The notes beneath the pieces are model-generated. The model was not told where the DNA came from. It saw only the letters and a program-made list of their open reading frames with translations, and made no database searches. From contig NZ_CP104007.1 of NCBI RefSeq assembly GCF_029201545.1, positions 2,204,501 to 2,268,500 of the forward strand: DNA of 64,000 nt, given 5' to 3'. The translations under genes were made by a program, and so were the position numbers. Shown here piece by piece: positions 16,325 through 41,217 of the stretch (the first letter of the stretch is position 1; each line of letters starts with the position of its first letter). This DNA comes from Devosia sp. FJ2-5-3. Lineage in GTDB: Bacteria > Pseudomonadota > Alphaproteobacteria > Rhizobiales > Devosiaceae.

Positions 16325-17185
16325 ATGCCCAAGAAACCGAAGGGTCGGCGTTACGCCCCTGCCCCAAACATCGAACATGTAACTACACATCCAGTGACGG
16401 GCATGATTGTCCGTGGCCCCATGGCGTTGAATGGTGTTGGAGACGATCGGGATCCGTTCGCTCATCAGATCCTGCCGAGGCAGAAGCGCAAGCACGAAAG
16501 CATTCGTGGGTCGGAAGCTCGGTTCCTGCGTACGCCGGGTGCGTCGCTTTACACGGGGATCGCACCTGTTCACGCGTTGAGTTTCGCCTCAAAGGCGTTT
16601 GAATCCAGCATTGAAGGTGATTTTTGGACGGTATCAGACTTCGTCTGGCCGGACATGACCGCTGCGCGATCGCAACCCGGATTGCTTTCGTGGGAGTCGC
16701 CGAAACACTGCGGCGAATGGTACCCGGATTCATGGGTCCGTCGGCCGGGCCATCTTGATCGTCTGATTGAATGCAAGCCCGTATCGGAGGCTCGCCCCGA
16801 CAAAGATAAGTACCCCGAGGAAGCTCAGGCCGCGGCACTCCGCTTTGCCGCCATGGAGGAAGCCACGGCCGCTCTCGGTATGCGCTTCACGCTCTATACG
16901 GAGCTTGAGATACGCAGTGAGCCTCGGTTTCACAACGCCAAAGCAATGCGTCGCGCTCTTAGCTCGCACATCACCGATCCGATGCTGGCGGAAGCGGCCG
17001 CGATCCTGAAAACGCTGCCGGAGCACATGACCGTACTGGAGTTCTCCAAACACCTCGGGAGCCTCGCCGGTAGCGCCTTGAACATCGCTTGCTTGCTCGA
17101 CCGCTACGGCGGTCTGCACTTGGACCGGTCCTCATACTTCCTGCCCCGGTCGAGGTTTCAGAACCTGGTTTCGAGGTTCGTCTAA
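16325..17185 (+). CDS. tnsA: TnsA-like transposon endonuclease
   Basis: A 286-aa protein with a restriction-endonuclease-like core. SSIEGDFW gives candidate E97, GHLD gives D145 and IECK gives E149/K151, an arrangement like the Glu-Asp-Lys set of TnsA. A helical C-terminal part follows. In Tn7-like elements TnsA cuts the 5' ends of the transposon while TnsB joins the 3' ends, allowing cut-and-paste movement. Its TAA shares a base with the ATG of the next gene (TAATG), typical of tns operons. Confidence 0.8.
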   Translation: MPKKPKGRRYAPAPNIEHVTTHPVTGMIVRGPMALNGVGDDRDPFAHQILPRQKRKHESIRGSEARFLRTPGASLYTGIAPVHALSFASKAFESSIEGDFWTVSDFVWPDMTAARSQPGLLSWESPKHCGEWYPDSWVRRPGHLDRLIECKPVSEARPDKDKYPEEAQAAALRFAAMEEATAALGMRFTLYTELEIRSEPRFHNAKAMRRALSSHITDPMLAEAAAILKTLPEHMTVLEFSKHLGSLAGSALNIACLLDRYGGLHLDRSSYFLPRSRFQNLVSRFV

Positions 17186-19440
17186 TGGGCATGATGTTTG
17201 GCGGGACTAAAGACCTTGAAGAAGGCCGCTTTGTAAGGATCAAGGGGCGTACCTGTGAGGTGATCGGGTTCGATCCCGTCAAGACCACATGGCAAGTTCA
17301 GAACGTCACCACCAAGGAGAAATTCCCGCTCGATCGCCGCCAGGTTTTCGAGTTGCAGCATCGCTCTGAAATCGTCGCGGACCACCATTGGCAAAGTTTG
17401 TCGCCCACCGTGAAGGAACTCCTGGCCGGTGACTGGAACCTGTTCACGCAGAAGCAGCGGGATCGTGCTGAATTCAAGGCCACAGTCTGTCGCTATCTTG
17501 ATAACGTGAAGTTTGGCCCCAAGGTCCGGCGAACTGCCAAGACCATCGAAGATGCCATCAAACACGCAATGACCTTGGACACCACCGGGCAGCCCAAGCC
17601 AGAGGTCCAAACCGTTCGACGCTTGTGGGACCCGATCTGGATCGCGTCCGGTAAGAACCCGAAGGCTCTTATCGATCAGGACCACAAGAAAGGGAGACGC
17701 AGGTCCAAAGACGATCCGTACATGGCTGTCATCAAGATCGTTGAAGACCTGATCGACGAACGGATTGTCCATAACCTCGACCAGGTGGAGTCGATTGCTG
17801 CTGTTCAAGATGAAGCCAACGATATCGTCTGGCAGAAGCACGACCAGGGGCTTATTGGGATTCATCCGCTCTGCAACACAGATGAAGATCAGTACATCGG
17901 CAAACACCTGGTTCGCCGGCGCTTCAGAATGCGAAATGCCCACCAGCAGCTCTCTTACGACCGCAGTCGTCGGGAGGCTGATCGCCTGACCTCAGGCATA
18001 GTTCAGGGTCCCCGTGTTGAAGGGCCACTGGCTCGTGTGGAATGTGACCACACCCCGCTCGATCAGTACGCGCTCACCGGAGTGGACGGCGAGAAAAAGA
18101 TACCTTGGCTCACGCTGCTGAAAGATAAGTTCAGCGGAGCCGCCTGCGGCTACTACATCTCATTCGACCGCCCGAACTGGTACGCGGTACACGAGGCCAT
18201 TCGTATGGCTGTCCTGCCCAAAGCGAGCTGGATGGCAACGATGAACCACGACTTCAAGGCTACCTGGGATGTTTGTGGGGTCCCGGACGTCATCCCCGTG
18301 GACCGCGAGTCTATGCATCGAGGTGCCGCGGTCGCCGGTTTGTCAGCCAGCTTGGGATTTGTCATTCAGGATCTTCCGAAAGCGTCCGGTCACCTGAAAG
18401 GCGGCATCGAGAAAGGCTTGGGCGACGTTTTGCACCGTCACATTGCCCGGCAGCCTGGTGCGAAGGAGGCAAACTACACCGAGATGGATCCGGATAAGGC
18501 AAATCCAACGATGACCCTGGAGCTCATCAGGGAAGCAATGGCGATTTTCCTGGTCGAGGATTACAATCAGCGGGTCGAGCCAGGTACGGGTGAAATTCGT
18601 ATCGAACGATATCGCAGGGGTATGCTGGATAGCCTGAATTGGAAAAATCCGCCTGATCCCGAAATCTTTGCCGGCAGGTCACAGAGCGCAAAGCTGACCG
18701 AGCATGGTGTCAACGTCGACGGTATCCAATACTTCTCCACAGGGCTACGTCAGATGTACTTTGACGCCGGCGGCAAGGTTGATGTGGTCATCATTGTACC
18801 GGAACATGGCATCGACGATACAATCAGGGTGCTTGGCCTTCAGGGTGTCGCCTATGTCGAAGGATATCGTCAAGGCATTACAGCCAAGAGGAATCTGACG
18901 CATAAACAGGCCGTCGAGATGCGCAAGCAGTTGGCCAAAAAGAAGGATCCTAAGGAAGTTCGAGTGGCGGCTCGTGACGCGCGTATCAATGCCCAGAAGG
19001 GCATCAAGGCGCTGTCTGGTCCACCTCGCAAGGTAAGGAAGCTCCGCGATGCACCTCGTCCCAAAGCGGGCGAACACATCTCAGAGCCGTCTTTCCAGCC
19101 GGAGGTGGGTGGCGCTGCCGATTTCGACGGACACGACATCGCCGCAGAGGAATTCGACTACACTCGCTACGGTGCTGGCGGACCATTTGCAGCTCCCGGT
19201 TTGGCGGAGTTGGCCATTGAGGCATCGCGTGCGGCGATGGTGGAAGAAGTTGCCACCATCTCCGTACCGACGAGCGAGCATTCCTTTGTTCCGGACATAC
19301 CCGCGCCTCCAGCGCCGCCACTCGAAGAAGAGAATGGCCAAGCTATCGAGAGCGCTGAATACGACACTCCGGTTTACGCGCGGGAAGAATCCGTTCCATT
19401 TGCCGGCAACGACGACGATGACGGAATCTACGAAGTATGA
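17185..19440 (+). CDS. tnsB: TnsB-like DDE transposase (Mu/Tn7 integrase family)
   Basis: A 751-aa transposase with an N-terminal DNA-binding half and a retroviral-integrase-type core. The catalytic triad reads D288 (VECDHTPLD), D373 (IPVDRES) and E409 (GGIEKG); the last two are separated by 35 residues, the classic D35E spacing. A beta-barrel region follows, then a long acidic, Pro-rich tail (about residues 640-751) likely to contact the AAA+ partner. I start at ATG 17185 because it overlaps the tnsA stop, rather than at an ATG 96 bases upstream inside tnsA. The triad is intact, so the enzyme may be active. Confidence 0.9.
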   Translation: MGMMFGGTKDLEEGRFVRIKGRTCEVIGFDPVKTTWQVQNVTTKEKFPLDRRQVFELQHRSEIVADHHWQSLSPTVKELLAGDWNLFTQKQRDRAEFKATVCRYLDNVKFGPKVRRTAKTIEDAIKHAMTLDTTGQPKPEVQTVRRLWDPIWIASGKNPKALIDQDHKKGRRRSKDDPYMAVIKIVEDLIDERIVHNLDQVESIAAVQDEANDIVWQKHDQGLIGIHPLCNTDEDQYIGKHLVRRRFRMRNAHQQLSYDRSRREADRLTSGIVQGPRVEGPLARVECDHTPLDQYALTGVDGEKKIPWLTLLKDKFSGAACGYYISFDRPNWYAVHEAIRMAVLPKASWMATMNHDFKATWDVCGVPDVIPVDRESMHRGAAVAGLSASLGFVIQDLPKASGHLKGGIEKGLGDVLHRHIARQPGAKEANYTEMDPDKANPTMTLELIREAMAIFLVEDYNQRVEPGTGEIRIERYRRGMLDSLNWKNPPDPEIFAGRSQSAKLTEHGVNVDGIQYFSTGLRQMYFDAGGKVDVVIIVPEHGIDDTIRVLGLQGVAYVEGYRQGITAKRNLTHKQAVEMRKQLAKKKDPKEVRVAARDARINAQKGIKALSGPPRKVRKLRDAPRPKAGEHISEPSFQPEVGGAADFDGHDIAAEEFDYTRYGAGGPFAAPGLAELAIEASRAAMVEEVATISVPTSEHSFVPDIPAPPAPPLEEENGQAIESAEYDTPVYAREESVPFAGNDDDDGIYEV

Positions 19441-20423
19441 CCGACGCTCTTCCCCCAAGTCCGGCAACGCCCGACGAACGCAACAGGAGCATCGGCAGGG
19501 CGTTCATCTCTCATTCGACGTCCAATCGCATAGTCGGCGCGCTGGACAGCATCTACGGACTTCAGGGAAGCCGGCATTTTGGCCAGATCGTCGCAATCCA
19601 AGGCACGTCACACGTTGGCAAGTCCACGGCACTCGACTTTTGGATGATCCGCCTGGCTGAACAGCTAGGTGGCATTACTGAAAATCTCGCGCGAAACCAG
19701 GAGCGCGTCAACGAAGCTGCAAATGTCTCCTATGTGACGATGATGGATGGGCCCCAGCGCATACATCCCGTCATTCGTATCCAGATTATCGGGAATCCGA
19801 CCTTTCGGGCGCTCGGGGATGACACCCTGCGCGGCTTGGTCAGAGGTAGACCGGACCCTTGGAAGAATGGTGGGGACCTGGCGTCGGCCTTGACGAACAA
19901 GCTGGTGGCATTCCGCACCAAACTGGTGATCTACGAAGACATCCAGGAACTGGCGAAGGTGAAGGGCGCTCGCGCCAACGAAGCTGTGGTGCTGCTGAGA
20001 GCCTTGTGCAAGGTCGCGCGTGTCGAGGTCGCAGCTGTCGGGACCGAGGGCACTTTCAAAATCCTCAAGAGCGAAAACGAAACCCAAAAGCTCGTCGCCG
20101 ACTGGATCGAGCTATCACCACTGGCCCCTCCTGATTTCGAAAAGGAGAAGCCGGGTGAGTTCGTGACCTTCCTGTCGAAACTGAAGAAGAAGCTTCTCTT
20201 TCCCAAGGAAAGCCCTCTTGACGAGAAGCAGCTGGCACTGATGCTGTGGAGCTACTGCGGCGGGGTTATCGGCGAGATAAAGTCGTTGATGCAAAGTGCC
20301 ACCGACACCGCCACTCGTCAGGGTTGGGACTGCATTGATCGAACGGCACTTCGCAAGCACCTGGAGTTGAAGCAGAAAAAATTCGGCCGTGACAATCCCT
20401 TCTTTCTGCCTGGTGATGAATGA
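19437..20423 (+). CDS. tnsC: TnsC/TniB-like AAA+ ATPase
   Basis: A 328-aa P-loop ATPase with Walker A QGTSHVGKSTALDFW at about residue 58 and a Walker B-like LVIYEDIQ near residue 165, as in TniB/TnsC target-selection ATPases. It would form filaments on DNA and link the target selector TniQ to TnsAB. The gene overlaps tnsB by four bases (ATGA) and tniQ by four bases, so all four genes form one translationally coupled unit. Confidence 0.88.
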   Translation: MTDALPPSPATPDERNRSIGRAFISHSTSNRIVGALDSIYGLQGSRHFGQIVAIQGTSHVGKSTALDFWMIRLAEQLGGITENLARNQERVNEAANVSYVTMMDGPQRIHPVIRIQIIGNPTFRALGDDTLRGLVRGRPDPWKNGGDLASALTNKLVAFRTKLVIYEDIQELAKVKGARANEAVVLLRALCKVARVEVAAVGTEGTFKILKSENETQKLVADWIELSPLAPPDFEKEKPGEFVTFLSKLKKKLLFPKESPLDEKQLALMLWSYCGGVIGEIKSLMQSATDTATRQGWDCIDRTALRKHLELKQKKFGRDNPFFLPGDE

Positions 20424-21523
20424 TGGGAGAGGGTCAGGCCCAATGGTCTCCACCGGTGGCACTGCGTCCAGTTCGGTCCGAGACCGGACGCGCGTTTTTC
20501 ATCAGGGCAACTGCCGCGAACGGTTGGTCCAAGTACGATGATTTCCTGAACCGCGTTGGACTGAAACCCAGTGACCTCAAGATTCAGGGCAATGTGGACA
20601 ATTTGGCTCGTGCTTTTGGCGCCTCTCCAGAAGAATTCGAGAACATTTCCGATCGGTGGGCGGTGGAGACCGTTTCATTTGATGGGCATCGCTTTCTGCA
20701 GACAAAGGTCGATTTGCGTAGGCGCCGTATATGTCATGGCTGCTTGGCCGCCGGACGCCCGTCGACTTTCGAATGGGAATTGAACCTGATCACCGAGTGT
20801 CCCGAGCATGGGGCACTGTCAGACACATGCAGTTGTGGCGCACCGCTGACTTGGAGCGATCGCCACATGTGGGTTTGCAACAGGTGCCCTGCTCCCATCT
20901 GGGAGGACCCTCCAATGCCGCCCGCCAATGCGATGGACCTGCCTTTTCAACGATACATGTTGGGAAGGTTCGGAAAACGTGACGAAGCCCCCTGCCCGCT
21001 ATTGGATGAAATTCCGGTGGAGACAATCGCTGGTTTTGTCGAAGCGCTCGGATTGCTTTTCGAGCACGGAGCACTCCCAACAATGCCAGGCACCACCTCT
21101 CTGCAAGAAAAAGCGACTCTTCGAGAGCTTGGATATTCAAAGTTGGTTGGCGGGGCGGGTTCCTGCGATTTCACAGATATCGTTTCGGGCTACAGAGTAG
21201 CCACAGGGATCATTTGCCCTAAGGAGCCCATTGCGGCGCTGGGCTTCATCAAGGACGCCCCAGCGCTCTTCAGCCGGGGGCGGAAGGAGCTTTTGGCTTT
21301 TCTTTGTGACCGACTTGGTTTGGCGCTGGGGTATCCCGTCCACGACCTATGGAGGTCCGAATACATTGACATTGATCAGTGTGCGGCTGAAGTCCGAATG
21401 CCCGTGAGAGATGTCATCAAGGAGATACGTGCAAATGGATGGTCGGGCCTTTGCTATCCTTGGGCTGACCGGCTTTTTGTCCCTGTCGACGTTCACTGGC
21501 AGTTGCAGCAGATCGCTAAGTGA
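20420..21523 (+). CDS. tniQ: TniQ/TnsD-family target-selection protein
   Basis: A 367-aa protein with zinc-binding cysteines typical of TniQ: CHGC, then CPEHG, CSCG and CNRC between about residues 95 and 160. A C-terminal helix-turn-helix-like part (QCAAEVRMPVRDVIKEIRAN) follows. TniQ/TnsD proteins choose the target site for Tn7-like transposons. At 367 aa it is intermediate between the small TniQ of CRISPR-associated elements and full TnsD. No Cas genes are present. The target it recognises cannot be told from the window. Confidence 0.88.
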   Translation: MMGEGQAQWSPPVALRPVRSETGRAFFIRATAANGWSKYDDFLNRVGLKPSDLKIQGNVDNLARAFGASPEEFENISDRWAVETVSFDGHRFLQTKVDLRRRRICHGCLAAGRPSTFEWELNLITECPEHGALSDTCSCGAPLTWSDRHMWVCNRCPAPIWEDPPMPPANAMDLPFQRYMLGRFGKRDEAPCPLLDEIPVETIAGFVEALGLLFEHGALPTMPGTTSLQEKATLRELGYSKLVGGAGSCDFTDIVSGYRVATGIICPKEPIAALGFIKDAPALFSRGRKELLAFLCDRLGLALGYPVHDLWRSEYIDIDQCAAEVRMPVRDVIKEIRANGWSGLCYPWADRLFVPVDVHWQLQQIAK

Positions 21524-22069: not shown

Positions 22070-23634
22070 GAGGCTGTGTGAAAACCCGTAATGATGCTAT
22101 GATCTGGCACTGCTTCGGGGGTGCCATATGGGTTGTTTCGTTGAAGCTGCTGACCGCCACCAAGCGAGCTTTTTGCCGGCGTGTCTTGAAGACTATGTTG
22201 ATGCGGACAACCCGGTCCCCATCATTGACACCTTTGTGGATGAACTTGAGCTGGCCGAACTGGGCTTTGCCCGCGTGCAGCCGGCAGCGACTGGCAGACC
22301 CGGCTACGCCCCCGGCACAATGCTCAAGCTCTATGTCTATGGCTATCTGCATCAGTTGACCTCGAGCCGGAAACTCGAGCGCGAGGCTGGCCGCAATATC
22401 GAGCTGATGTGGCTGACCGGAAAGCTGGTGCCGGACTTCAAGACCATTGCCGACTTCCGCCGCCACAATGCCGGCGCGATCCAGATCGCATGTCAGCGCT
22501 TTGTTGCCATCTGCCGTGCTCTTGGTCTGGTCGGCGGCGGTATGGTCGCAATCGATGGATCACGCTTGCGGGCGGTGAACACGCACGAGAAGAACTACAC
22601 CAAGGGCAAGCTGGCGCGGCGCAAGGCCCATGTCGAGGAGAGCATCGCGCGCTATCTGGCCGAGCTTGAGAAAGCCGACCGAGCGGAGACGGGACCGGCT
22701 ACGCCGCGCATCGTGCACCTGACGGAGCGACTGGCATCGCTGCGGGGTCGGCTTGGCGAGCTCGAGGAGATTGGCCGGCAACTGCAAGGCGCTCCCGATG
22801 AGCAAATCTCGCTCACCGATCCGGATGCTCGAGCCATGGCGACCGGCAGCGATCATCGCGGGGTCGTCGGCTACAATGTGCAGGCGGCCGTCGATACCAA
22901 GCATCATATCGTGGTCGCCAACGCGGTGACGAACCGCGGCCACGATCGCTCGCACCTGTTGGAGATGGCCAAGGCTGCACAGGCCGAGACGGGCGCCTCC
23001 GAGATGATCGCCCTTGCCGATCGCGGCTATTACGAGGGCGAGCAGATCCGCTCCTGTGCCGAAGCTGGCATCATCCCGATGGTGCCCAAGCCCAATACCT
23101 CACCGGCTCAGGCGCGTGGCTTTTGGGGCAAGGCCATGTTCGTGCATGAGCCTGAGACCGACACCTATCGGTGCCCCGCCGGCCAGCAATTGCAGAAGCG
23201 CTTCGCCCGAGTGGAGGGCGGCAAGCTCATCAGCGTCTACTTCAACCAGAAGGCCTGCAGCGCATGCACGTCGCGTCCCCTGTGCACGGCCGGCAAGGAG
23301 AAGCGCATCCGGCGATGGAAGCATGAGGCGGTGCTCGATGAGATGGAGCGCAGGTTCGAAGCGATGCCCGAGGCGATGGCGGTCCGCCGCTGTACTGTCG
23401 AGCACGTCTTCGGCACCATCAAGGGCTGGATGGGTGCCACTCACTTCCGAACGCGGGGGCTCAAGAACGTCGCCACCGAAGCTAGCCTGGCAATCCTGGC
23501 CTACAACATCAAGCGCGCCATCGCCGTCGCCGGCGTCGTTCCAATCCTCCAAGCGATAAGGGGATGAAGCGGTCCCGCTGATGCTATCGCCTCAAGCTCA
23601 CGCCAAACGCTGCCGCGAGTTCTCACACAGCCTC
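22070..23634 (+). mobile_element. IS1182-family insertion sequence, complete with 5-bp target duplication
   Basis: The ends are readable: GAGGCTGTGTGA at 22070-22081 and its exact complement TCACACAGCCTC at 23623-23634. Both ends are flanked by CGCCC (22065-22069 and 23635-23639), a 5-bp target duplication. Removing the element restores a sequence that reads GCGCCCCATTCC, a copy of the intergenic repeat found elsewhere in the window. The element is 1565 bp and carries one intact transposase gene, so it looks recent. Confidence 0.85.
22128..23567 (+). CDS. IS1182-family transposase
   Basis: A 479-aa DDE transposase. The N-terminal region (YAPGTMLKLYVYGYLHQLTS) is typical of IS1182/IS4-like proteins. 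Catalytic candidates are D in MVAIDGSRLRA, D in MIALADRGYYEG and E in VEHVFGTIKGWMG. A Cys-rich insert (CSACTSRPLC) is also typical. Full length, no frameshift, inside matched inverted repeats. Confidence 0.93.
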   Translation: MGCFVEAADRHQASFLPACLEDYVDADNPVPIIDTFVDELELAELGFARVQPAATGRPGYAPGTMLKLYVYGYLHQLTSSRKLEREAGRNIELMWLTGKLVPDFKTIADFRRHNAGAIQIACQRFVAICRALGLVGGGMVAIDGSRLRAVNTHEKNYTKGKLARRKAHVEESIARYLAELEKADRAETGPATPRIVHLTERLASLRGRLGELEEIGRQLQGAPDEQISLTDPDARAMATGSDHRGVVGYNVQAAVDTKHHIVVANAVTNRGHDRSHLLEMAKAAQAETGASEMIALADRGYYEGEQIRSCAEAGIIPMVPKPNTSPAQARGFWGKAMFVHEPETDTYRCPAGQQLQKRFARVEGGKLISVYFNQKACSACTSRPLCTAGKEKRIRRWKHEAVLDEMERRFEAMPEAMAVRRCTVEHVFGTIKGWMGATHFRTRGLKNVATEASLAILAYNIKRAIAVAGVVPILQAIRG

Positions 23635-33380: not shown

Positions 33381-33410
33381 TTCTCTGTGGCCGCTTTGGC
33401 CGATGGAGAA
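33381..33410 (+). repeat. Hairpin upstream of integrase copy 1
   Basis: TTCTC...GGCC / GGCC...GAGAA form a stem ending six bases before the integrase ATG. The same structure, better preserved, precedes copy 2 at 40884-40920. The right arm contains the GGAGA that would serve as ribosome binding site. Confidence 0.6.
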
Positions 33411-33415
33411 ATGTC

Positions 33416-34048
33416 ATGGGTATCGCACATTACGACCCTGCTCCTGCAGGAAGAACTGCATGGAATGCCGGCATAAAGGTTGGCGCCAAGCGCGCTTTGA
33501 AAGTTAAATAGATGTGGTCAATCCGGTTCTTCCTGGATCGCGAGGGCAGGTTGAGGGACCAGGCGTTATTAGACCTCGCGCTCGACAGCGAGCTTCGAGG
33601 CTGCGATCTAGTGAAAATCAAGATTGGCACACTCGTGGCCGGACCAGCGATCCGTACACGATCGATGGTGATTCAACAAAAGACAGAACGGCCTGTTCAA
33701 TTCGAGATCACGTCTGACACGAGGGCCAGCTTGCTGGCTTGGCTGGGGCGCCGCGGAGGCACTGTCGAGGATTTTGCGTTTCCCAGTCGTATTGCCGGGA
33801 ATGGCCATCTTAGCACGCGTTAATACGCGAGGCTCGTCACCGAGTGGGTGACAGCAATCGGATTGCCGTCGGCAGAATACGGTACTCATTCGATGAGGCG
33901 GACCAAAGCTTCGCTCATCTACAAGGCGACTGGGAATCTTAGAGCCATTCAGATCCTGCTTGGTCACAGCAAGATCGAGAATACGGTTCGCTATCTAGGG
34001 TTAGACGTCGACGACGCTGTCTCCTTAGCAGAGGCTACGGAAATCTGA
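33416..34048 (+). pseudogene. Short tyrosine recombinase, broken by two in-frame stops (copy 1)
   Basis: The reading frame from ATG 33416 to TGA 34048 is intact in length and shows a small (~210 aa) phage-type integrase, with TEWVTAIG, YGTHSMRRTKASLIYKATG and IQILLGHSKIENTVRYLG (the H-x-x-R, LLGH and Tyr of the active site). Two stops interrupt it: TAG at 33509-33511, where copy 2 has CAA, and TAA at 33830-33832, where Gln is expected. Both look like C-to-T changes at Gln codons. The frame is otherwise undamaged, so inactivation is recent or the stops are read through. Confidence 0.8.
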
Positions 34049-34580
34049 GGTAACCACCTTCGCCGGCGCGCATCAAATGCCGTCGGCGAAGCGCCCCATT
34101 CCCGCCGTTCGGACCGCATTTTTGATTTCCCGAAACCTGCCAGTCCGCTTTGGCCGCCGCCAAGGCCAAATTGGGGTGGGGAGCGGACGGTCTGGTTCTG
34201 TCAGACTTTCATGAGTAAGCTGACATATACTTGCTAGGCCAGCGGATCACTCGCACATCGCCGACCGATGGAAGGTATATGTGGTGAGTAGAGTTCGTCG
34301 AAAGAATGCCTCTCTTAAACTGCCGTCTTTGCATCTTCATAAAGAAAAATTCGTTGCGTCGCTGGCCAACTTCATCGGCTTTGGAATTTCCGCATAAGAT
34401 GGGATTTCATAGCCCCATCATTCAAGATGAAAGTCTAGCGATTTATGTCAAATTCACTGCTCGCAGAGTATCGAGTGACGTCTTTGGATGGAAGCTGCTT
34501 CAATTGATCAAGTTGAATCATGTTGACTGAATTCAACGGACATAATTCATTGGCAAGACGAAAAATTTCCGGGCGCCCAA
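34049..34580. other. Gap between integrase copy 1 and the two-gene system
   Basis: Contains a hairpin (CTTCGCCG 34057-34064 / CGGCGAAG 34083-34090), repeat copy B (34091-34179) and an AT-rich leader. A 38-codon frame from GTG 34281 with GGAAGG upstream, and another ORF at 34306-34530, have no recognisable product. The promoter of the following ATPase gene must be here; I see no clear operator. Confidence 0.45.
34091..34179 (+). repeat. 89-bp intergenic repeat, copy B
   Basis: 88 of 89 bases match 24372-24460 in the same orientation (one C/G difference). Such identity in non-coding DNA 9.7 kb apart implies recent duplication or gene conversion. Confidence 0.85.
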
Positions 34581-36716
34581 ATGACTGGACTAGAGGAAGT
34601 TGCAGCGACGGCACTTTCGATGTGGGTAGGCGGCAAACTCGGGGAGTTCGCCTTCGGCTACGTCTGCGGCAAGGTCACCGATTTTACCTTGGGCCAGGTC
34701 GATCAACGCATTCGAAAGGCATCTGAACAGGGACATTTGCCCCCGAACAGAGTGTTCGAGCGCGCGGCGCTGCGTTCCGCGCTTCAGGCCACTCGGTATT
34801 GCATGGACGAAAGCACGGCCGAAGATATGTCGGGCAAGGCTGCGGGCGGCGCGATCATGTCGACCGCCTGGACCGGTGAAATATTTACGCGGGGAGCACC
34901 CGCAGCACGGGCTTACAGCTGGCTGGAAACCCACACGGGCAAGTTGCATCACAAGGCCGATGAAAGACCTCGCCAGGAAGCCATCGACAGCCTGATGCCT
35001 AGCCAGCAAGACGCCGTCCTTCTTGGTCGCAAATTCGCCATTAGTTCAATCGCGGGAGCCGAGGTCGAGGCGCAAGTCGACTCTGCGGTGAACCTTCTAG
35101 GTCAGCACATCATCAACAAGGTCATTGCCGAAGGCCGCTGGGCTGACGGCGACCATGCGCGGCAAAGACTGGAAGAAAGCTGTGCTTCGGGCAACCGCTG
35201 GAACTATGCCTTCTCCCACTTCTACGCCCAGGAGATCAAAGAAGACACGGCCCTCAGCAGGCTCCTCCAAACCGTGCAGCTGGTGGACATAGCCTCCGCC
35301 CAGCAGGCCAACCATGCCGCGGTGACAGAACTACTCAAACGGCTCGAAACTCGGCTGGACGACCTCGTGCAGCGCGCGCCGGTGTCCTCCGGTCCCTCCG
35401 GCCGGGAGGCCTGGGCGTTCAAACACATGTTTCGCGACCCCGCCGGAAGAATCGTGGGCGAGGACCGCTTTCATTTCAGTGCCGCGCGCGACAAGTTTGT
35501 CGGACGCGAAAAAGACCTCGATACAATACGGCGCTCGCTGTTTGGCGACGATGCCCTCGGCGAGCGCTTCCTCTGGATGGCGGTCTGCGGGGAAGGCGGC
35601 ACAGGCAAAAGCCGGCTTTGCCAAGAACTGATTGCCAAGGCGCCGGACCTCGGATTCATGAGCGCCGGTTTCGCGTCCACTGACTTCATTCAGGACAAGG
35701 ACTGGCTGGAATCTGCTGCCGACAAGATCCGCGAAAACACGCTTATGGTCGTCGACTATTCCACTAATTCCATGGATCAGCTGCCCGGATTTCTGGACAA
35801 CTGGGTGAAGTATGCCAAGAAGGATACAGAAGGACCGCTGATCCGGCTGATTATCATCCTGCGCAATTCCAATGACCCCTTCTTCGGCCAACTGGAACGC
35901 TCGCGCTCGGATTATCGCGGGCAAATCCTGGCAGCGGAGAGAAAACCTGGTGGCCGGCGCCTGGCCCTGGCTGATCTTTCTGACGACGAGATCGTGCAAT
36001 TGATGCGGGCGCGGATGCAGAGGCTCGCCGCGGATTCAGCGACGGCACAAATCCAGCTTGATGCGGAATCCTTGCTGAAGCACTTGAGGCGCTTCGACCG
36101 TTTCACGCGGCCACTTTTTGCCTTGATGGTCGCGGAGGCCCTGCAAAACGGAGAACTGGACAAGATCGGCACCTCTGCCGACCGAGAGAAGGCCCGTTTC
36201 ACGCTGTTCGCGGCATATCTGCAGCGGCAAAGACATCAATATTGGCAGGCGAGCTGGCACCGGGTTTGCGACTCGGGCAGCCCGCATGCCCTGGAACAGC
36301 ATGAGAATGCCGTGCGTCTCGCCACGGCGACCGCTGGCCTCGAGATCGAACATTACGACACCATCCGCAACGCGATGCCCGAAGGAATGCAGGAAATGCT
36401 GCCTGAACGGCGACAACGCCGCATGCCAGACAGCCTGCAATGGCAGTTGATCCAGACCATAACCGGCATCGAAATGACCGGAGCAGAGGGTCCTGAACGA
36501 TTTGCGCCGCTCGAACCCGACCTGATCGGGGAATTCTTCGTGCTCAAAGGCAAAGAACTGAGCATGCTCAATGAATGGGCCCTCGATCTCGAAACCCTGA
36601 TCTCGCTGGCCTATCAGCACCATCCAGACAGAACGCTGCATTTTCTGCGTATGGCGGCACAGGACTATCCTCAGTTTATGGCTGAGCGAAATTTCCTCCT
36701 TCCGGAGCTGACATGA
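34581..36716 (+). CDS. STAND-like P-loop ATPase, first gene of an uncharacterised two-gene system
   Basis: A 711-aa protein with three parts. Residues 1-300 are alpha-rich and unassigned, with a Gly-rich amphipathic start (MWVGGKLGEFAFGYV). Residues about 305-560 form an NTPase module beginning FVGREKDLDTIRRSLFG, a typical STAND/AAA lead-in, with Walker A GEGGTGKS at 337-344, Walker B ending at D392 (LMVVDY) and a sensor-like IIILRNSNDPFFG. Residues 560-711 are helical. STAND proteins act as regulated switches, often in phage defence. The gene overlaps the next by four bases (ATGA). No effector domain is recognisable. It lies between two decayed integrases. Confidence 0.75.
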   Translation: MTGLEEVAATALSMWVGGKLGEFAFGYVCGKVTDFTLGQVDQRIRKASEQGHLPPNRVFERAALRSALQATRYCMDESTAEDMSGKAAGGAIMSTAWTGEIFTRGAPAARAYSWLETHTGKLHHKADERPRQEAIDSLMPSQQDAVLLGRKFAISSIAGAEVEAQVDSAVNLLGQHIINKVIAEGRWADGDHARQRLEESCASGNRWNYAFSHFYAQEIKEDTALSRLLQTVQLVDIASAQQANHAAVTELLKRLETRLDDLVQRAPVSSGPSGREAWAFKHMFRDPAGRIVGEDRFHFSAARDKFVGREKDLDTIRRSLFGDDALGERFLWMAVCGEGGTGKSRLCQELIAKAPDLGFMSAGFASTDFIQDKDWLESAADKIRENTLMVVDYSTNSMDQLPGFLDNWVKYAKKDTEGPLIRLIIILRNSNDPFFGQLERSRSDYRGQILAAERKPGGRRLALADLSDDEIVQLMRARMQRLAADSATAQIQLDAESLLKHLRRFDRFTRPLFALMVAEALQNGELDKIGTSADREKARFTLFAAYLQRQRHQYWQASWHRVCDSGSPHALEQHENAVRLATATAGLEIEHYDTIRNAMPEGMQEMLPERRQRRMPDSLQWQLIQTITGIEMTGAEGPERFAPLEPDLIGEFFVLKGKELSMLNEWALDLETLISLAYQHHPDRTLHFLRMAAQDYPQFMAERNFLLPELT

Positions 36717-39700
36717 TGGAGACGATGGCGGTGTCCACTGACAGCAAATCGCTCGAGGCAGTTCGCAGGTCCGCGTTTCTCCGCAATATTTGCGCCGATC
36801 TCAGCAGGCGCGCCGATCCGGATCAGCGGACGAACGAAGAAATGGATGTGCTCGACAAGGTCTTGAGCATTCTCGAGAAATTGGAGACCCTCGGCGTAGA
36901 GGATCTGGCCTATCTGGAGAGCCGGGCGAAAATCCTCGAACAGATTGCGTCGGTTGCCGGCAATGCCATCAATGTCAATATCAACATCGAGGATGGCAAC
37001 GAACCAGAGGAAGCGGGGCGGGAAAAAGCCGAACAGTCCATGAGTGCCAGCTTCGACCAACCAGGTGTTGCCCTTAGGTCGGAGACCGGCAATCAGGCGA
37101 GTCAGCTTGCCGGTATAGCTGCCGGCTTCGGCAGGAGTGCAATCTCCAGAGCTCTCCGCAATGGCGGCGGACGCCAGATGGACGCGGAGGTTCATCCGGA
37201 CGTGATCGGCAGGGCAGATGGCCTGTTGCGCCGAGTCTTCTCGATGGCTTGGAACAGTCTCTTCGTGGTGCCCACGGCGGAACTTGCAGAGCCCCTGACA
37301 GATGCAGTCGCCAGATGTGTAACCAGCCTGTTTTGGGTCGATCGCGGTAACAAGGAAAAGGGTGGACGGCACGCTTCAGCGCTCAATGAGGACGACACTG
37401 CAAGGCGCGCCGAAATCAAGCAGGCGCTGTTGACGCAATTGCACCATACGGCAAAGCCCTTGCACCGCTCCATTGCGGTTCGGGTTCTGGCGGCGCTCGG
37501 CTACTCAATGAATGGCCTGCCCCGCGAGGATGTCTTTGCTGCAATCAATCTGGCCTACTCGCCTGCGGCACTGGACCAGTTCGAGGACTGGAATACCTTC
37601 CATCCAACGCTCAAAGCCTTCCCCAACATCGTGATCTCTCTACTCACCACGGGCCAGGGCGGGGAGGATGACACGCCGCTGGCGATCGCCATGCAGCACC
37701 TAGTGATGAAGAAGGGTGGCGAACTACTGTCCCAACTGGTGGCCGATCCCGGGGTCCCCGACGACGATGTCGGCCAGGCGGGTTCGGCCTTGCTCTCAGG
37801 GGTCACGGTTCTGGCGCACAAGATGGACGAACGGGCCCATGCCGGGGCGCTACAGGCTTCATGGCACATGGTCGCGGCGGCCATTGCACCGATCGTCGAT
37901 CGCCTCAAGATCGACAGCAATTTCTTGATGTTCCTGGCGCTCCCTTTTGTCCATGGGTTTGAGGACAAGACCAGCGACGTCATCGGCATGCGGTTTGCCA
38001 AAGTGCCGCGCCGACTTCGCCCGCTATTGGAGGCAAGGCGCGTATCGGATCACGACTTCCGTCACCACTACCGACACTCCCTTGATTATCTCATCCACTA
38101 CTACGTCCTCTTCAGTCCGGCCGACGAACAGGACACGCTCGCTTTCGCCACTTCGATGCATCTGTGTATCGGCGACGTGTTTCTGGCGGAAGTGCACGAC
38201 ACTCTGAACAGAGCGGGCTGCTTCTCAATGACATCGGAACGAGCGCTGAGCTTGGCCGAATGGCTGGGGGCCATCGGCAACGCCACAGCGACCTTCGAGG
38301 GAACCAACGCCAGCCGAAGCATCTATATGCTCTGGTCCAGGATGTTGTTCGATGGCGCTGCGGACAAAGTCGATGCCGCCATAGAGGAACTTTGGAATCG
38401 AACGGAGGGTACCGCGCTCGAACAGGTCCTTGGTCGCACCCTGGCGCTGCGCGGCTTTGCACTCGCAGTATCCTTTGGCGGGATGGCGGCTGATGCGGAT
38501 GGGCGCTTCGCATCCAGGCTGCAGCAGATCAGGATGCACAGGACAATCGACTGGCTGCGGGAGGTCGAACAGTCGACCGACTTGCAGACGGCCTGGAACG
38601 ACCATGACGATGCCGTTGTCGAAGCGACTATGGCGCTGTCATCTATCGATATTAAGTCCGGCGGAGACATTGGTCGCTGGCTTGCAGCGGAGGACTGGAG
38701 CGTGAACTTTGGGTCTGTCGTAGAACTTGACCGGCGCCTGGCAAGGGCACTGCTGGAGCGCATTCGCCAGCAACAGAATGCGGCGAAAGCTCTGGCCGAC
38801 CTCCAGGTTCTCAAGCGACTTGCACAACGTGAATACAGCCTGTTGCGGGCGGCGATCGATGCCGTACTCGTCATTCTCCCCGAAGGCTCTGCGCAGCGGG
38901 ACGAGTTACTGATCGAACGCGGCAAGATACGGGAAGAAGACGACGCCAGGATTGAATCTCCAAGCGTCGAATATGACCTTGATTCTGGTCTGCTTTCCGC
39001 GCAGGAGGCCGCCAAAATGCGTGATCGCGCCGCAACGGCGGCAGCCTGGCACCTGCCCTTGCCGTTCCGCGCGATTTGGGAGGAGTTGGGCCCGGAGGAA
39101 CTGATCGAGATTGTCCAGCGCGCTCGATCTACGATGACCGATTTCCGGGCATCGACCCGCGCCAAGCTGGCCGATGCAATTCGAGCCCGTCGCACCTCCC
39201 TTCCCTTTTACAAGGGTCACGATCTGGTGGAGATCCTGATCGATGATGGGGGGGTGCCGCGATCGTTCAACATGATTTTCGGACCCGAGGCGGCAATCTG
39301 GCTGCACGGCAAGTCAGATCCGCTCCATCGGCTCAACACCACCGTGCCGATCGATCTCGCGGGCGGGGTCTTTGCCGAACTCTACTTGAATTTCTTCTGT
39401 GCCTACGTGCAGTCCGGCGAGGGACCGTTCCACATCGTCACCGAACCGGACGACCTCAAGGGCCATCTGCTGACGGGCACGACCTTGTCCGACGAAAATA
39501 TGGCCCTGCTCGAAGGCAAGTTCGGCGAGTTACGCCAGAAAGGCCACCGGAAGGCCAATGACGGGTCGACCGATGCTGCGATTGCGGTTGATGAGAATGG
39601 GCGTTTCCTCGAGTCCACATTGGTCGTCTATGCGCGTGGCCTCTTCATCGCCGAATTCGCAATCGAGCCGACCGGCATGGTACAGATGTTGGAAGAAGAG

Positions 39701-39796
39701 CCGCTGTTCACCTCTGAAAACATTCGCATCGAGCGGATTGTTTCGGGGTGGCGCGTTGGCCGGACAACCTCTTCATCTGAAAAAGAACTAGACTAG
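36713..39796 (+). CDS. Large protein of unknown function, partner of the STAND-like ATPase
   Basis: A 1027-aa protein that I do not recognise. It is soluble and mostly alpha-helical, with an N-terminal coiled-coil-like stretch (residues about 40-80, EEMDVLDKVLSILEKLETLG). A short beta patch (NAINVNINIED) follows, then a long helical-repeat-like middle, and a mixed C-terminal domain from about residue 860 (DLVEILIDDGG, FNMIFGPEAAIWLHGK, AELYLNFFCAYVQSGEGPFH, EPDDLKGHLLTG). No P-loop, nuclease or TM motif is visible. Four-base overlap with the ATPase gene implies a fixed ratio and a complex. The C-terminal part may be the effector or sensor. Confidence 0.7.
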   Translation: MMETMAVSTDSKSLEAVRRSAFLRNICADLSRRADPDQRTNEEMDVLDKVLSILEKLETLGVEDLAYLESRAKILEQIASVAGNAINVNINIEDGNEPEEAGREKAEQSMSASFDQPGVALRSETGNQASQLAGIAAGFGRSAISRALRNGGGRQMDAEVHPDVIGRADGLLRRVFSMAWNSLFVVPTAELAEPLTDAVARCVTSLFWVDRGNKEKGGRHASALNEDDTARRAEIKQALLTQLHHTAKPLHRSIAVRVLAALGYSMNGLPREDVFAAINLAYSPAALDQFEDWNTFHPTLKAFPNIVISLLTTGQGGEDDTPLAIAMQHLVMKKGGELLSQLVADPGVPDDDVGQAGSALLSGVTVLAHKMDERAHAGALQASWHMVAAAIAPIVDRLKIDSNFLMFLALPFVHGFEDKTSDVIGMRFAKVPRRLRPLLEARRVSDHDFRHHYRHSLDYLIHYYVLFSPADEQDTLAFATSMHLCIGDVFLAEVHDTLNRAGCFSMTSERALSLAEWLGAIGNATATFEGTNASRSIYMLWSRMLFDGAADKVDAAIEELWNRTEGTALEQVLGRTLALRGFALAVSFGGMAADADGRFASRLQQIRMHRTIDWLREVEQSTDLQTAWNDHDDAVVEATMALSSIDIKSGGDIGRWLAAEDWSVNFGSVVELDRRLARALLERIRQQQNAAKALADLQVLKRLAQREYSLLRAAIDAVLVILPEGSAQRDELLIERGKIREEDDARIESPSVEYDLDSGLLSAQEAAKMRDRAATAAAWHLPLPFRAIWEELGPEELIEIVQRARSTMTDFRASTRAKLADAIRARRTSLPFYKGHDLVEILIDDGGVPRSFNMIFGPEAAIWLHGKSDPLHRLNTTVPIDLAGGVFAELYLNFFCAYVQSGEGPFHIVTEPDDLKGHLLTGTTLSDENMALLEGKFGELRQKGHRKANDGSTDAAIAVDENGRFLESTLVVYARGLFIAEFAIEPTGMVQMLEEEPLFTSENIRIERIVSGWRVGRTTSSSEKELD

Positions 39797-39994
39797 CCAT
39801 TGGCGGCATTCATCACTGAAGTGGCTACTGCACTTGAAGTTGAGCAACCAGACAGTGTCTGCTTTTCGGTAACTTTATTTTAATCGCGAATGACCGCCAC
39901 GGGGTCGATCCCGTACGAGGAGTTATGGCGCAAAAAAGGATAGCGAGCTCCGAAACTCGTCATTCAGGAGCATGGAACCAGCAGCTCAATGGGC

Positions 39995-40031
39995 TATTTC
40001 AGTCATCCCTATATTAGTTTGAACTGAAATA
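39995..40031. promoter_or_regulatory. Dyad operator-like element before the SRPBCC gene
   Basis: TATTTCAGT (39995-40003) and ACTGAAATA (40023-40031) are perfect inverted arms; inside, TTAGTTTGAACTGAA forms a tighter dyad. This resembles operators of ArsR-type repressors that are usually encoded beside SRPBCC genes. It ends 11 bases before the ATG, next to the GAGGCGG ribosome binding site. No ArsR gene adjoins. Confidence 0.45.
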
Positions 40032-40042
40032 ACGAGGCGGCT

Positions 40043-40690
40043 ATGCCATTCGATATCTCGGCGCATCTGAGCACGACACAGCGCGACGTCCGAAACGTCG
40101 AACATCACGGTCAATCGGCCAAGGACGTCGTTGCCGCGCGCGTCTATGACACCAACGCAGCAGACCTCTGGGAGGCCGTGACCAATCCGGTTCGCATCAC
40201 GCGCTGGTTCGCTCCGGTGACCGGCGAATTCAAGCTGGGGGGGCGCTTCCAAATCGAGGGCAACGCCTCAGGCACGGTTACAGCCTGCGAACCAGACCGC
40301 TCATATGCGGCCACTTGGGAGTTCGGCGGCTATACCAGTTGGATCGAAGTAAATGTCTCCCAAGAGGGCGAAAAGGCTCGCGTCGAAATCCACCATATCG
40401 CGCCCCATCCAAATCCGCATTGGGACCAGTATGGAGCCGGGGCTGGCGGCGTTGGGTGGGAACTTGGGTTAATTGCCCTTGCCGAACATTTGAAGCGTCC
40501 TGGGGATGATGTGCGCGCCGAAGGCGTCAATGGCTGGGAGACATCTAGCGAAGCCAAGACATTTGTCGATCAAGCAAGCAGCGCTTGGGGACGGGCCGCC
40601 ATCCACGGAGGTGACCAGCCTCGGACCGCCATGCAGGCAGCCGAAGCCACCAGGCGCTTTTATTCCGGTGAACCGCCGCTGGATGCGTAG
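40043..40690 (+). CDS. SRPBCC (AHSA1-like) domain protein
   Basis: A 215-aa protein. Residues about 28-145 form an AHSA1-type SRPBCC fold (RVYDTNAADLWEAVTNPVRITRWFAPV, with EFKLGGRFQIEG), a hydrophobic-ligand pocket. The C-terminal ~70 residues are a family extension (VGWELGLIALAEHLKRPG). Such genes usually follow an ArsR-like repressor; here that gene is missing and only an operator-like dyad is seen. Specific ligand unknown. Confidence 0.82.
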   Translation: MPFDISAHLSTTQRDVRNVEHHGQSAKDVVAARVYDTNAADLWEAVTNPVRITRWFAPVTGEFKLGGRFQIEGNASGTVTACEPDRSYAATWEFGGYTSWIEVNVSQEGEKARVEIHHIAPHPNPHWDQYGAGAGGVGWELGLIALAEHLKRPGDDVRAEGVNGWETSSEAKTFVDQASSAWGRAAIHGGDQPRTAMQAAEATRRFYSGEPPLDA

Positions 40691-40883
40691 TGCACACCTT
40701 GGACGTTCTGGGCGATCATGTGCGGAGGGCATCGCCGACCGTCACTTGAAAGAGGACGGCAGCTTTCAGGATTGCCAATGACAACTGCAGAGGGCTGGAA
40801 TGGGGTCGAGAGCTGCCGGTCTGGTATCGTGCCCCTTCCTTGCGCTTATGGAGGGCCCCCTCGCTTATGCGCGTGCCATTAAT

Positions 40884-40920
40884 CAATTCTCCATTGGCCG
40901 CTTCGGCCGATGGAGAATTG
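40884..40920 (+). repeat. 17-bp-arm hairpin upstream of integrase copy 2
   Basis: CAATTCTCCATTGGCCG (40884-40900) and CGGCCGATGGAGAATTG (40904-40920) pair in 16 of 17 positions around a 3-nt loop. It ends two bases before the integrase ATG, and its right arm holds the ribosome binding site, so folding would block translation. It is shared with copy 1. Confidence 0.75.
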
Positions 40921-40922
40921 AT

Positions 40923-41217
40923 ATGGGTATCTCACAGTATGATCCTGCTGCTGCCGGCAGACCCGCCTGGAATGCTGGCAAGCAAGTTGGCGCCAAGCGC
41001 GCCTTGAAGGTCAAGCAAATCTGGACGATCCGCTTCTTTCTACATCGAGAAAGTCGAATGAGAGACCGAGCGATTTTTGACGTGGCTATCGACAGCAAGC
41101 TTCGAGGCTGTGACTTGGTGAAGATCAAGATCGCCACACTCGTGTCGGGACCTGCCGTTCGCTCCCGATCGATGGTGATCCAGTAAAAGACGGGCAGAAA
41201 AGCACCGATTTTGAGAC
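40923..41217 (+). pseudogene. Short tyrosine recombinase, 3'-truncated (copy 2)
   Basis: Starts MGISQYDPAAAGRPAWNAGK and aligns with copy 1 through CDLVKIKIATLVSGPA, ending at a TAA (41184-41186) where copy 1 has a Gln codon. Homology fades by about 41217, before the catalytic C-terminal half (no R-H-R-Y box). It is thus a remnant. Same orientation as copy 1, 7.5 kb away, together bracketing the two-gene system and the SRPBCC gene. Confidence 0.75.

Follow-up and report, generated by a model that had tools for sequence, protein, structure and literature searches.

We analysed a pair of overlapping genes in a 64,000-nucleotide stretch of the Devosia sp. FJ2-5-3 chromosome (the window, G000:C1:2204501-2268500), taken from a genome (G000) of 4,192,992 bases in a single contig. 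Gene 1 (711 aa) and gene 2 (1027 aa) share the four bases ATGA at 36713-36716 and span 5.2 kb in total, exactly as described in the first-pass annotation of this DNA. Under a simple base-composition model, the probability of open frames this long is around 1e-11 for gene 1 and 1e-16 for gene 2, and the third-position G+C of the pair (0.69 and 0.70) is slightly lower than that of two neighbours (0.76 and 0.755). A scan of 34200-40100 for sigma-70 promoters found none. The features of the pair, with the C-terminal domain of gene 2 abbreviated to CTD and AlphaFold2 to AF2, are the following:

34581-36716, + strand: gene 1, comprising an N-terminal domain, a STAND-type P-loop NTPase and a helical C-terminus (open reading frame, Pfam, alignment with a Halomonas protein)
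34581-35468, + strand: N-terminal domain, residues 1-296, predicted to be helical with very low confidence
35589-35612, + strand: Walker A motif GEGGTGKS, residues 337-344 (sequence motif)
35742-35759, + strand: Walker B motif LMVVDY, residues 388-393, with D392 (sequence motif)
35844-35864, + strand: strand RLIIILR, residues 422-428, its R428 invariant in 11 aligned proteins
36108-36125, + strand: RPLFAL, residues 510-515, at the position of the STAND GxP-like motif
36704-36707, + strand: GGAG, Shine-Dalgarno-like, five bases before the gene 2 start
36713-39796, + strand: gene 2, predicted alpha-solenoid and CTD (open reading frame, Halomonas alignment, AF2)
36746-38953, + strand: predicted alpha-solenoid, residues 12-747 (AF2)
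39197-39706, + strand: CTD core, residues 829-998 (profile, alignment)

The two genes correspond to one polypeptide that has been split at different points. In an uncultured Halomonas, both halves lie in a single protein of 1718 aa, the only gene 2 homologue among 7994 candidates scored in a protein search: residues 39-711 of gene 1 correspond to its stretch 28-698 (42% identity), and residues 15-1016 of gene 2 to its stretch 715-1710 (43%). Two more distant members are cut before the CTD, one in the same order (G220; 1406 + 382 aa, 1-base overlap) and one in the same class (G431; 1414 + 351 aa, 4-base overlap). Because of the Halomonas fusion and the other point of cutting in these two members, we consider the pair to be one machine, a split STAND receptor. 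The halves were adjacent or fused in all four members, counting the window, and no member had one half by itself (n = 4), in agreement with the original suggestion that the ATPase is coupled to the second gene. The pair is a real, rare, split STAND receptor, and the observation that led to it was accurate. As the same NLR-like protein is found whole and cut at two joints, its domain borders are marked.

The P-loop at G337-S344 and the Walker B aspartate D392, both named at first reading, were found at these residues. The Walker A sequence has the form Gx4GK[S/T] required of a STAND NTPase, and gene 1 also shows an hhhhD Walker B followed by a downstream arginine strand, which we take to be defining marks of STAND proteins. 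Walker A residues G337, G340, G342, K343 and S344 as well as D392 are invariant in the four members, and the positions of D392, Y393 and R428 in all 11 aligned STAND-type proteins. R428 is presumably a sensor or finger arginine, and we assume RPLFAL to be the STAND GxP-like motif. This conservation of the Walker motifs and the arginine strand supports the earlier assignment as a STAND ATPase. Pfam AAA_16 matched residues 305-367 (E 3.1e-6, below the curated cut-off), Pfam found no NACHT domain in gene 1 at E ≤ 1, and PADLOC gave nothing convincing for the gene (best mad8, E 0.012; no Avs model matched). When an NTPase profile was compared with the PDB, the best NTPase match was APAF-1, which was not significant (E 0.11), and the higher-ranked matches were TPR proteins aligned to the repeat part of the profile.

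Residues 1-296 of gene 1 had no Pfam match and in NCBIfam just a weak one, PRK14777 at residues 9-54 (E 0.18); no effector enzyme was named for the N-termini of the relatives at E ≤ 0.5. Six residues of this region (P54, N56, E60, R61, W207 and K220) are invariant in the alignment of the four members, and a four-sequence N-terminal profile, run against a small set chosen beforehand, matched the N-termini of two TPR proteins (E 3.3e-4 and 3.8e-4). The start of the protein is weakly hydrophobic in all four members, and a membrane-acting role for it would be a guess. A HeLo/Bell-like pore-forming N-terminus, considered because of this hydrophobic start, would likewise be a guess: the best 19-residue Kyte-Doolittle means were just 1.04-1.44 in the four members, and the sole suggestive match was HetE-N in G220 (E 0.16).

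The claim that gene 2 shows no recognizable motif held, as its best Pfam match was DRE2_N (E 0.023) and PADLOC, PHROGs and NCBIfam gave none. The AF2 model predicts an alpha-solenoid, with a predicted local distance difference test score (pLDDT) of mostly 60-90 at residues ~10-90 and 160-420 and less elsewhere, and ends in a mixed alpha/beta domain at residues 825-999; weak as the model is, this agrees with the distinct alpha/beta C-terminal domain noticed at the outset. The CTD carries the motifs FYKGHDLVE (832), FGPEAA (856), HRLNTTV (872), YLNFFCAYV (891) and GMVQML (988), and its profile found no relative in the PDB (best E 0.17). Among the 50 Foldseek matches listed for the gene 2 model were HEAT/ARM proteins (CAND1, SF3b components and importins) and TPR proteins, with TM-scores to the query of 0.07-0.23, which support the class of fold and nothing finer. 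We rejected gene 2 as a separate enzyme on the lack of a family match and on the Halomonas fusion, which makes it the C-terminal half of the receptor. The initial view of a large coupled partner was right about the coupling, but the separate, unknown nature given to the partner was not borne out: it is the C-terminal half of the same receptor, ending in a mobile domain.

Judged from sequence comparison, the CTD is a mobile module at the end of three kinds of STAND-type protein, a finding new here. Outside the family of the pair, it lies in a Sinorhizobium nSTAND1-ankyrin protein (nSTAND1, E 8e-36) encoded beside the gene of a patatin, a phospholipase predicted to attack membranes (WP_339073313.1 / WP_339073315.1), and at the end of a Thiodictyon AAA_16-TPR protein. 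Gene 1 had no significant BLAST match to the latter, so the window receptor and the Thiodictyon protein are linked by the CTD only. A DUF4062 domain in the Sinorhizobium receptor was rejected: Pfam gave no match at E ≤ 0.1, and BLAST showed no significant similarity to a DUF4062 protein. The CTD profile matched 24 of 385 genomes of the class, counting own and G431; most of the matches were free proteins of ~200-270 aa. The CTD was present in 3 of 75 same-genus genomes, own included. Among the class CTD loci, 30 were fetched and 22 viewed with flanks of ~1.5 kb; in these, no patatin or VirD4-like neighbour was seen by eye.

Some free copies stand directly beside effector-like genes. In the window's own genome, a free CTD of 243 aa precedes a T4SS-DNA_transf/VirD4-like gene (501 aa) and a 345-aa gene (~2522200-2525480); these lie 280 kb from the receptor on the same chromosome (~2.52 Mb), and no other type IV secretion system genes were recognized around them by eye. 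G016 has a 262-aa CTD and a VirD4-like gene, 76% identical to own, together with a DUF4062-AAA_16-FGE protein and a TrkA_N/RyR protein, and G1116 has a 262-aa CTD with patatin in the VirD4-like slot of an otherwise similar locus. A receptor CTD and an effector-associated CTD occur in one locus in three Sinorhizobium plasmid records: S. meliloti pEm1132b, where a 254-aa CTD + VirD4-like pair (53% to own) diverges from patatin + receptor; S. meliloti RCAM1115, with a free CTD, patatin and the receptor; and S. medicae T10 (249-aa CTD + VirD4-like, 56%; ankyrin receptor and CTD in two overlapping frames; no patatin by eye).

We made some further observations on these loci. Two same-genus species carry relatives of the own-genome CTD/VirD4-like locus, and in one of them patatin takes the place of the ATPase. 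Loci L135 and L136 are alike and of conflict type, each with a TrkA_N/RyR protein (776 aa in L135, a 770-aa counterpart by eye in L136), a 213-254 aa protein, a CTD protein and a VirD4-like protein (L135) or patatin (L136), together with a 1212-aa protein (DUF4062-AAA_16-FGE in L135) and a 320-332 aa protein. The pEm1132b locus is dense: patatin, nSTAND1-ankyrin-CTD, free CTD + VirD4-like, a DUF7779/TPR protein and a cyclase, with SUMF1-type and caspase-family genes nearby according to the record annotation.

We placed 35 CTD sequences (7 receptor, 5 effector-side and 23 other) in a tree with an arbitrary root. The window and Halomonas copies came together (99/99), Thiodictyon fell with effector-side copies (87/81), and the Sinorhizobium receptor CTDs grouped with free chromosomal copies (98/94) and not with the window's; the main, deepest split is weak (78/82). 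The tree suggests more than one joining of the domain to STAND receptors; it also suggests that the Sinorhizobium receptor did not gain its CTD by recent duplication of the adjoining free copy. A small shared domain ties several predicted immune receptors of bacteria to exchangeable effector-like genes, and how STAND receptors pass on to separate effectors can thereby be tested directly. By analogy with effector-associated domains (PMC7159879), the CTD might be an adaptor. In its full form, which we put forward tentatively and hold to be rather unlikely, the CTD would be a plug-in linking STAND receptors with alpha-solenoid, ankyrin or TPR arms to swappable effectors (patatin or a VirD4/TraG-like ATPase), and the window receptor would act in trans on the 2.52-Mb operon of CTD, VirD4-like and 345-aa genes, with a conjugation-type DNA motor as immune effector. 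All three Sinorhizobium plasmids are typed conjugative, so the VirD4-like protein there could belong to conjugation, which counts against this reading.

The surroundings of the pair are those of an accessory element. Two copies of a 297-nt direct repeat flank it:

33388-33684, + strand: left copy of the 297-nt direct repeat, a tyrosine-recombinase fragment (repeat alignment, recombinase match)
40895-41191, + strand: right copy of the 297-nt direct repeat, 77% identical to the left

An annotated tyrosine recombinase aligns at 79.6% with the open reading frame of the left fragment (33512-33823), and Pfam gave no match for either recombinase-fragment frame at E ≤ 0.01; the flanking pieces, first described as two dead integrases, are real. 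Synteny with G014 runs along the left flank to ~33267, and synteny with G005 begins on the right flank at ~41290. The pair is absent from the fetched stretches of both; the two flanks are joined in neither, so no empty site was seen. The proposed accessory location is supported.

Neighbouring genes were scanned in part and named partly by eye. Those tested in the window were integrase relics and an AHSA1 gene, with no convincing defence gene; Pfam found AHSA1 in the second of the frames 33512-33823, 40043-40690 and 40800-41186 and nothing else, CARD folds not being searched by structure. The Halomonas protein has as one neighbour a SIR2 gene, matched by PADLOC PDC-S25 with E 6.3e-178; another neighbour resembles type III restriction enzymes (best E 1.3e-5). 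G220 has an IS110-like transposase (by eye; L010 1841-2899) and no convincing defence gene among the neighbours tested, and those tested in G431 were housekeeping-type genes and one weak 2OG/CRISPR-associated match (E 5.9e-4), making it the one locus of the four with no mobile or defence association. The classic phage-defence setting claimed for the pair is thus weak: the Halomonas SIR2 gene speaks for it at one locus of four, but the others have no strong defence neighbour. No match to a housekeeping or transport system was found for the pair itself.

The window holds other features of note. The AHSA1-family gene (40043-40690) separates the pair from the right integrase fragment. A set of Tn7/Tn5053-like transposition genes at 16325-21523 begins with a 286-aa gene without assignment and contains TnsB-like (PADLOC E 2e-16), TniB/TnsC-like and TniQ genes, and a DDE transposase (DUF772 + DDE_Tnp_1) is found at 22128-23567.

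Relatives of the whole receptor were few. Matches to gene 1 came from own and, STAND-only, from G029 (2 of 41 genomes), and those to gene 2 from own, G220 and, CTD-only, G102 (3 of 397 genomes of the order); a CTD of the gene 2 type was present in 1 of 75 same-genus genomes. A two-row profile (A1) matched 10 of 385 genomes of the class, with the NTPase and the following part matched in own and G431 only and a weak N-terminal match in G468, where stops interrupt the frame. With the family profile (A8), matches appeared in 15 of 349 genomes of the phylum, own being the only one to reach beyond position ~630 and G681 matching at the N-terminus only; in the families of G431 and G220 it matched 4 of 17 and 3 of 20, respectively, the sole long match in either family being that of G431 or G220 itself (full-length 1/17 and 1/20). 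In a pattern scan over 84,980 species, each represented by one genome, the 73 matches to the patterns included a single relative, Halomonas. Viral collections had no relative of gene 2 among 33 candidate stretches and none of the CTD among 74, and at least one, STAND-only, of gene 1 among the 600 candidate stretches listed. Phage records gave no match to the Halomonas protein and plasmids none to gene 1 or the 1406-aa protein of G220; gene 2 and the Halomonas protein had CTD-only matches in three plasmid records each, all Sinorhizobium. This rarity is probably overstated, as the protein searches scored ~8000 candidates each, the pattern scan used two peptide patterns and the scans were insensitive. 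From these sequences, the family appears patchy and accessory and is probably commoner than the counts show. A locus on a viral contig (L037 7701-10022) encodes a STAND-type NTPase whose hydrophobic N-terminus is, by eye, possibly membrane-anchoring.

We consider it probable that the pair is an NLR-like STAND receptor encoded by two overlapping genes, gene 1 providing the output and switch and gene 2 the sensor arm and CTD. Direct support comes from the single polypeptide in a relative, the two split points, the conserved Walker motifs and a CTD common to STAND-type and effector-adjacent proteins. The solenoid prediction for gene 2, the patchy spread, the SIR2 defence candidate near the Halomonas copy and the Avs-like plan also speak for this reading. 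A role in defence is likely; this role and the oligomerization, ligand and effector are what we infer. By analogy with Avs5, gene 1 would contribute an N-terminal domain for output or oligomerization and the NTPase switch, and gene 2 a solenoid arm as sensor together with the CTD. The resting state would be a closed complex of the two subunits with ADP bound. Once a product of a phage or mobile element, or a host protein that has been disturbed, docks on the gene 2 arm, the NTPase would swap its nucleotide and oligomerize, and the clustered N-terminal domains, or effectors brought via the CTD, would stop or kill the cell.

Several results weigh against this reading. No enzymatic effector domain was recognized in gene 1 by Pfam, PADLOC or NCBIfam, and PADLOC was without a convincing match for the family as a whole (PDC-S57 for the G220 relative, E 0.0069; none for the Halomonas relative; no Avs). 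Both AF2 models are poor, with mean pLDDT of 40.2 for gene 1 (3 sequences), which was left out of the fold search for that reason, and 55.6 for gene 2 (4 sequences); no sequence-repeat family was found in gene 2, its solenoid repeats being predicted by this low-confidence model. A strong defence-candidate neighbour is present at one locus only, that of Halomonas, and most free CTD relatives look by eye like ordinary chromosomal genes, several of them next to housekeeping-type genes, which lends no support to a domain dedicated to defence.

Those free relatives bear on another account of the CTD, in which it is an integrated bait that copies a host protein attacked or bound by invaders, and its modification at the arm's tip sets off the NTPase; the model for this is the integrated-decoy idea for plant NLRs. 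We regard it as improbable. It would explain why the profile is found in 24 of 385 genomes of the class mostly as stand-alone genes, several in housekeeping-type surroundings, and why Sinorhizobium receptor CTDs group with free copies in a way that suggests more than one fusion, and there is a precedent in bNACHT25, a bacterial NLR relative that, according to PMC12169576, senses via the host protein DnaJ. However, some free CTDs directly adjoin effector-like genes, for which an adaptor fits at least equally, contact of the CTD with an invader protein is not known, and the tree has an arbitrary root and a weak deepest split.

The weak defence context would also suit a regulator or signalling ATPase of the MalT kind with no part in defence, carried as accessory cargo; bacterial STAND proteins have been studied mainly as transcriptional regulators, according to PMC7159879. 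The probability of this is low, as Pfam found no DNA-binding output domain and the patchy spread, the Halomonas homologue and the gene fission and fusion fit conflict systems better. That the pair is one gene broken by a frameshift, through mutation or sequencing error, is very improbable: the closest relative is one continuous open reading frame and the window's two frames differ, but the canonical ATGA overlap with GGAG ahead of gene 2, the two relatives cut at another point with overlaps of 1 and 4 bases and the absence of any other frame break in the 5.2 kb all speak against it.

Returning to the split STAND receptor, we compared it with known systems. The first-pass annotation knew of no named system with this pair, and none was matched in PADLOC, in NCBIfam or in the PADLOC scans of the relatives; the open PMC titles and abstracts among the matches listed, which mostly do not cover subscription papers, included none on the pair or on the CTD with VirD4-like or patatin genes. 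The weak matches of AAA_16 and nSTAND_NTPase5 (Pfam) to the P-loop region of members and relatives are, for the four family members, all below the curated cut-offs. AVAST/Avs proteins such as Avs5 have the plan of effector, STAND NTPase and repeat sensor that we propose for the pair, and in Avs5 immunity depends on the Walker A/B residues and activation on the C-terminal repeat domain (PMC12931631). The pair differs from them in its two genes, an N-terminus without assigned family, the additional CTD beyond the predicted solenoid and the lack of a PADLOC Avs match. bNACHT and CARD-NLR proteins have a similar STAND-type switch with C-terminal repeats such as those predicted for the pair, but gene 1 lacks a NACHT match and has tyrosine, not an acidic residue, as the second residue past the Walker B strand, and the pair has no CARD or protease partner recognized by Pfam. 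The Sinorhizobium protein resembles the window receptor in STAND NTPase, superhelical repeats (predicted in the window receptor) and CTD, and differs in its nSTAND1 NTPase family, other repeats, a separate phospholipase gene and a free CTD + VirD4-like pair in the locus. The link between the CTD and interchangeable effector-like genes is the part worth following, and here there is a likeness to the conflict systems with effector-associated domains (PMC7159879), in that one domain occurs both in a receptor and in a protein beside interchangeable effector-like genes; the CTD differs in sitting at the C-terminus of the receptor, and homotypic binding is, by this analogy, putative for it.

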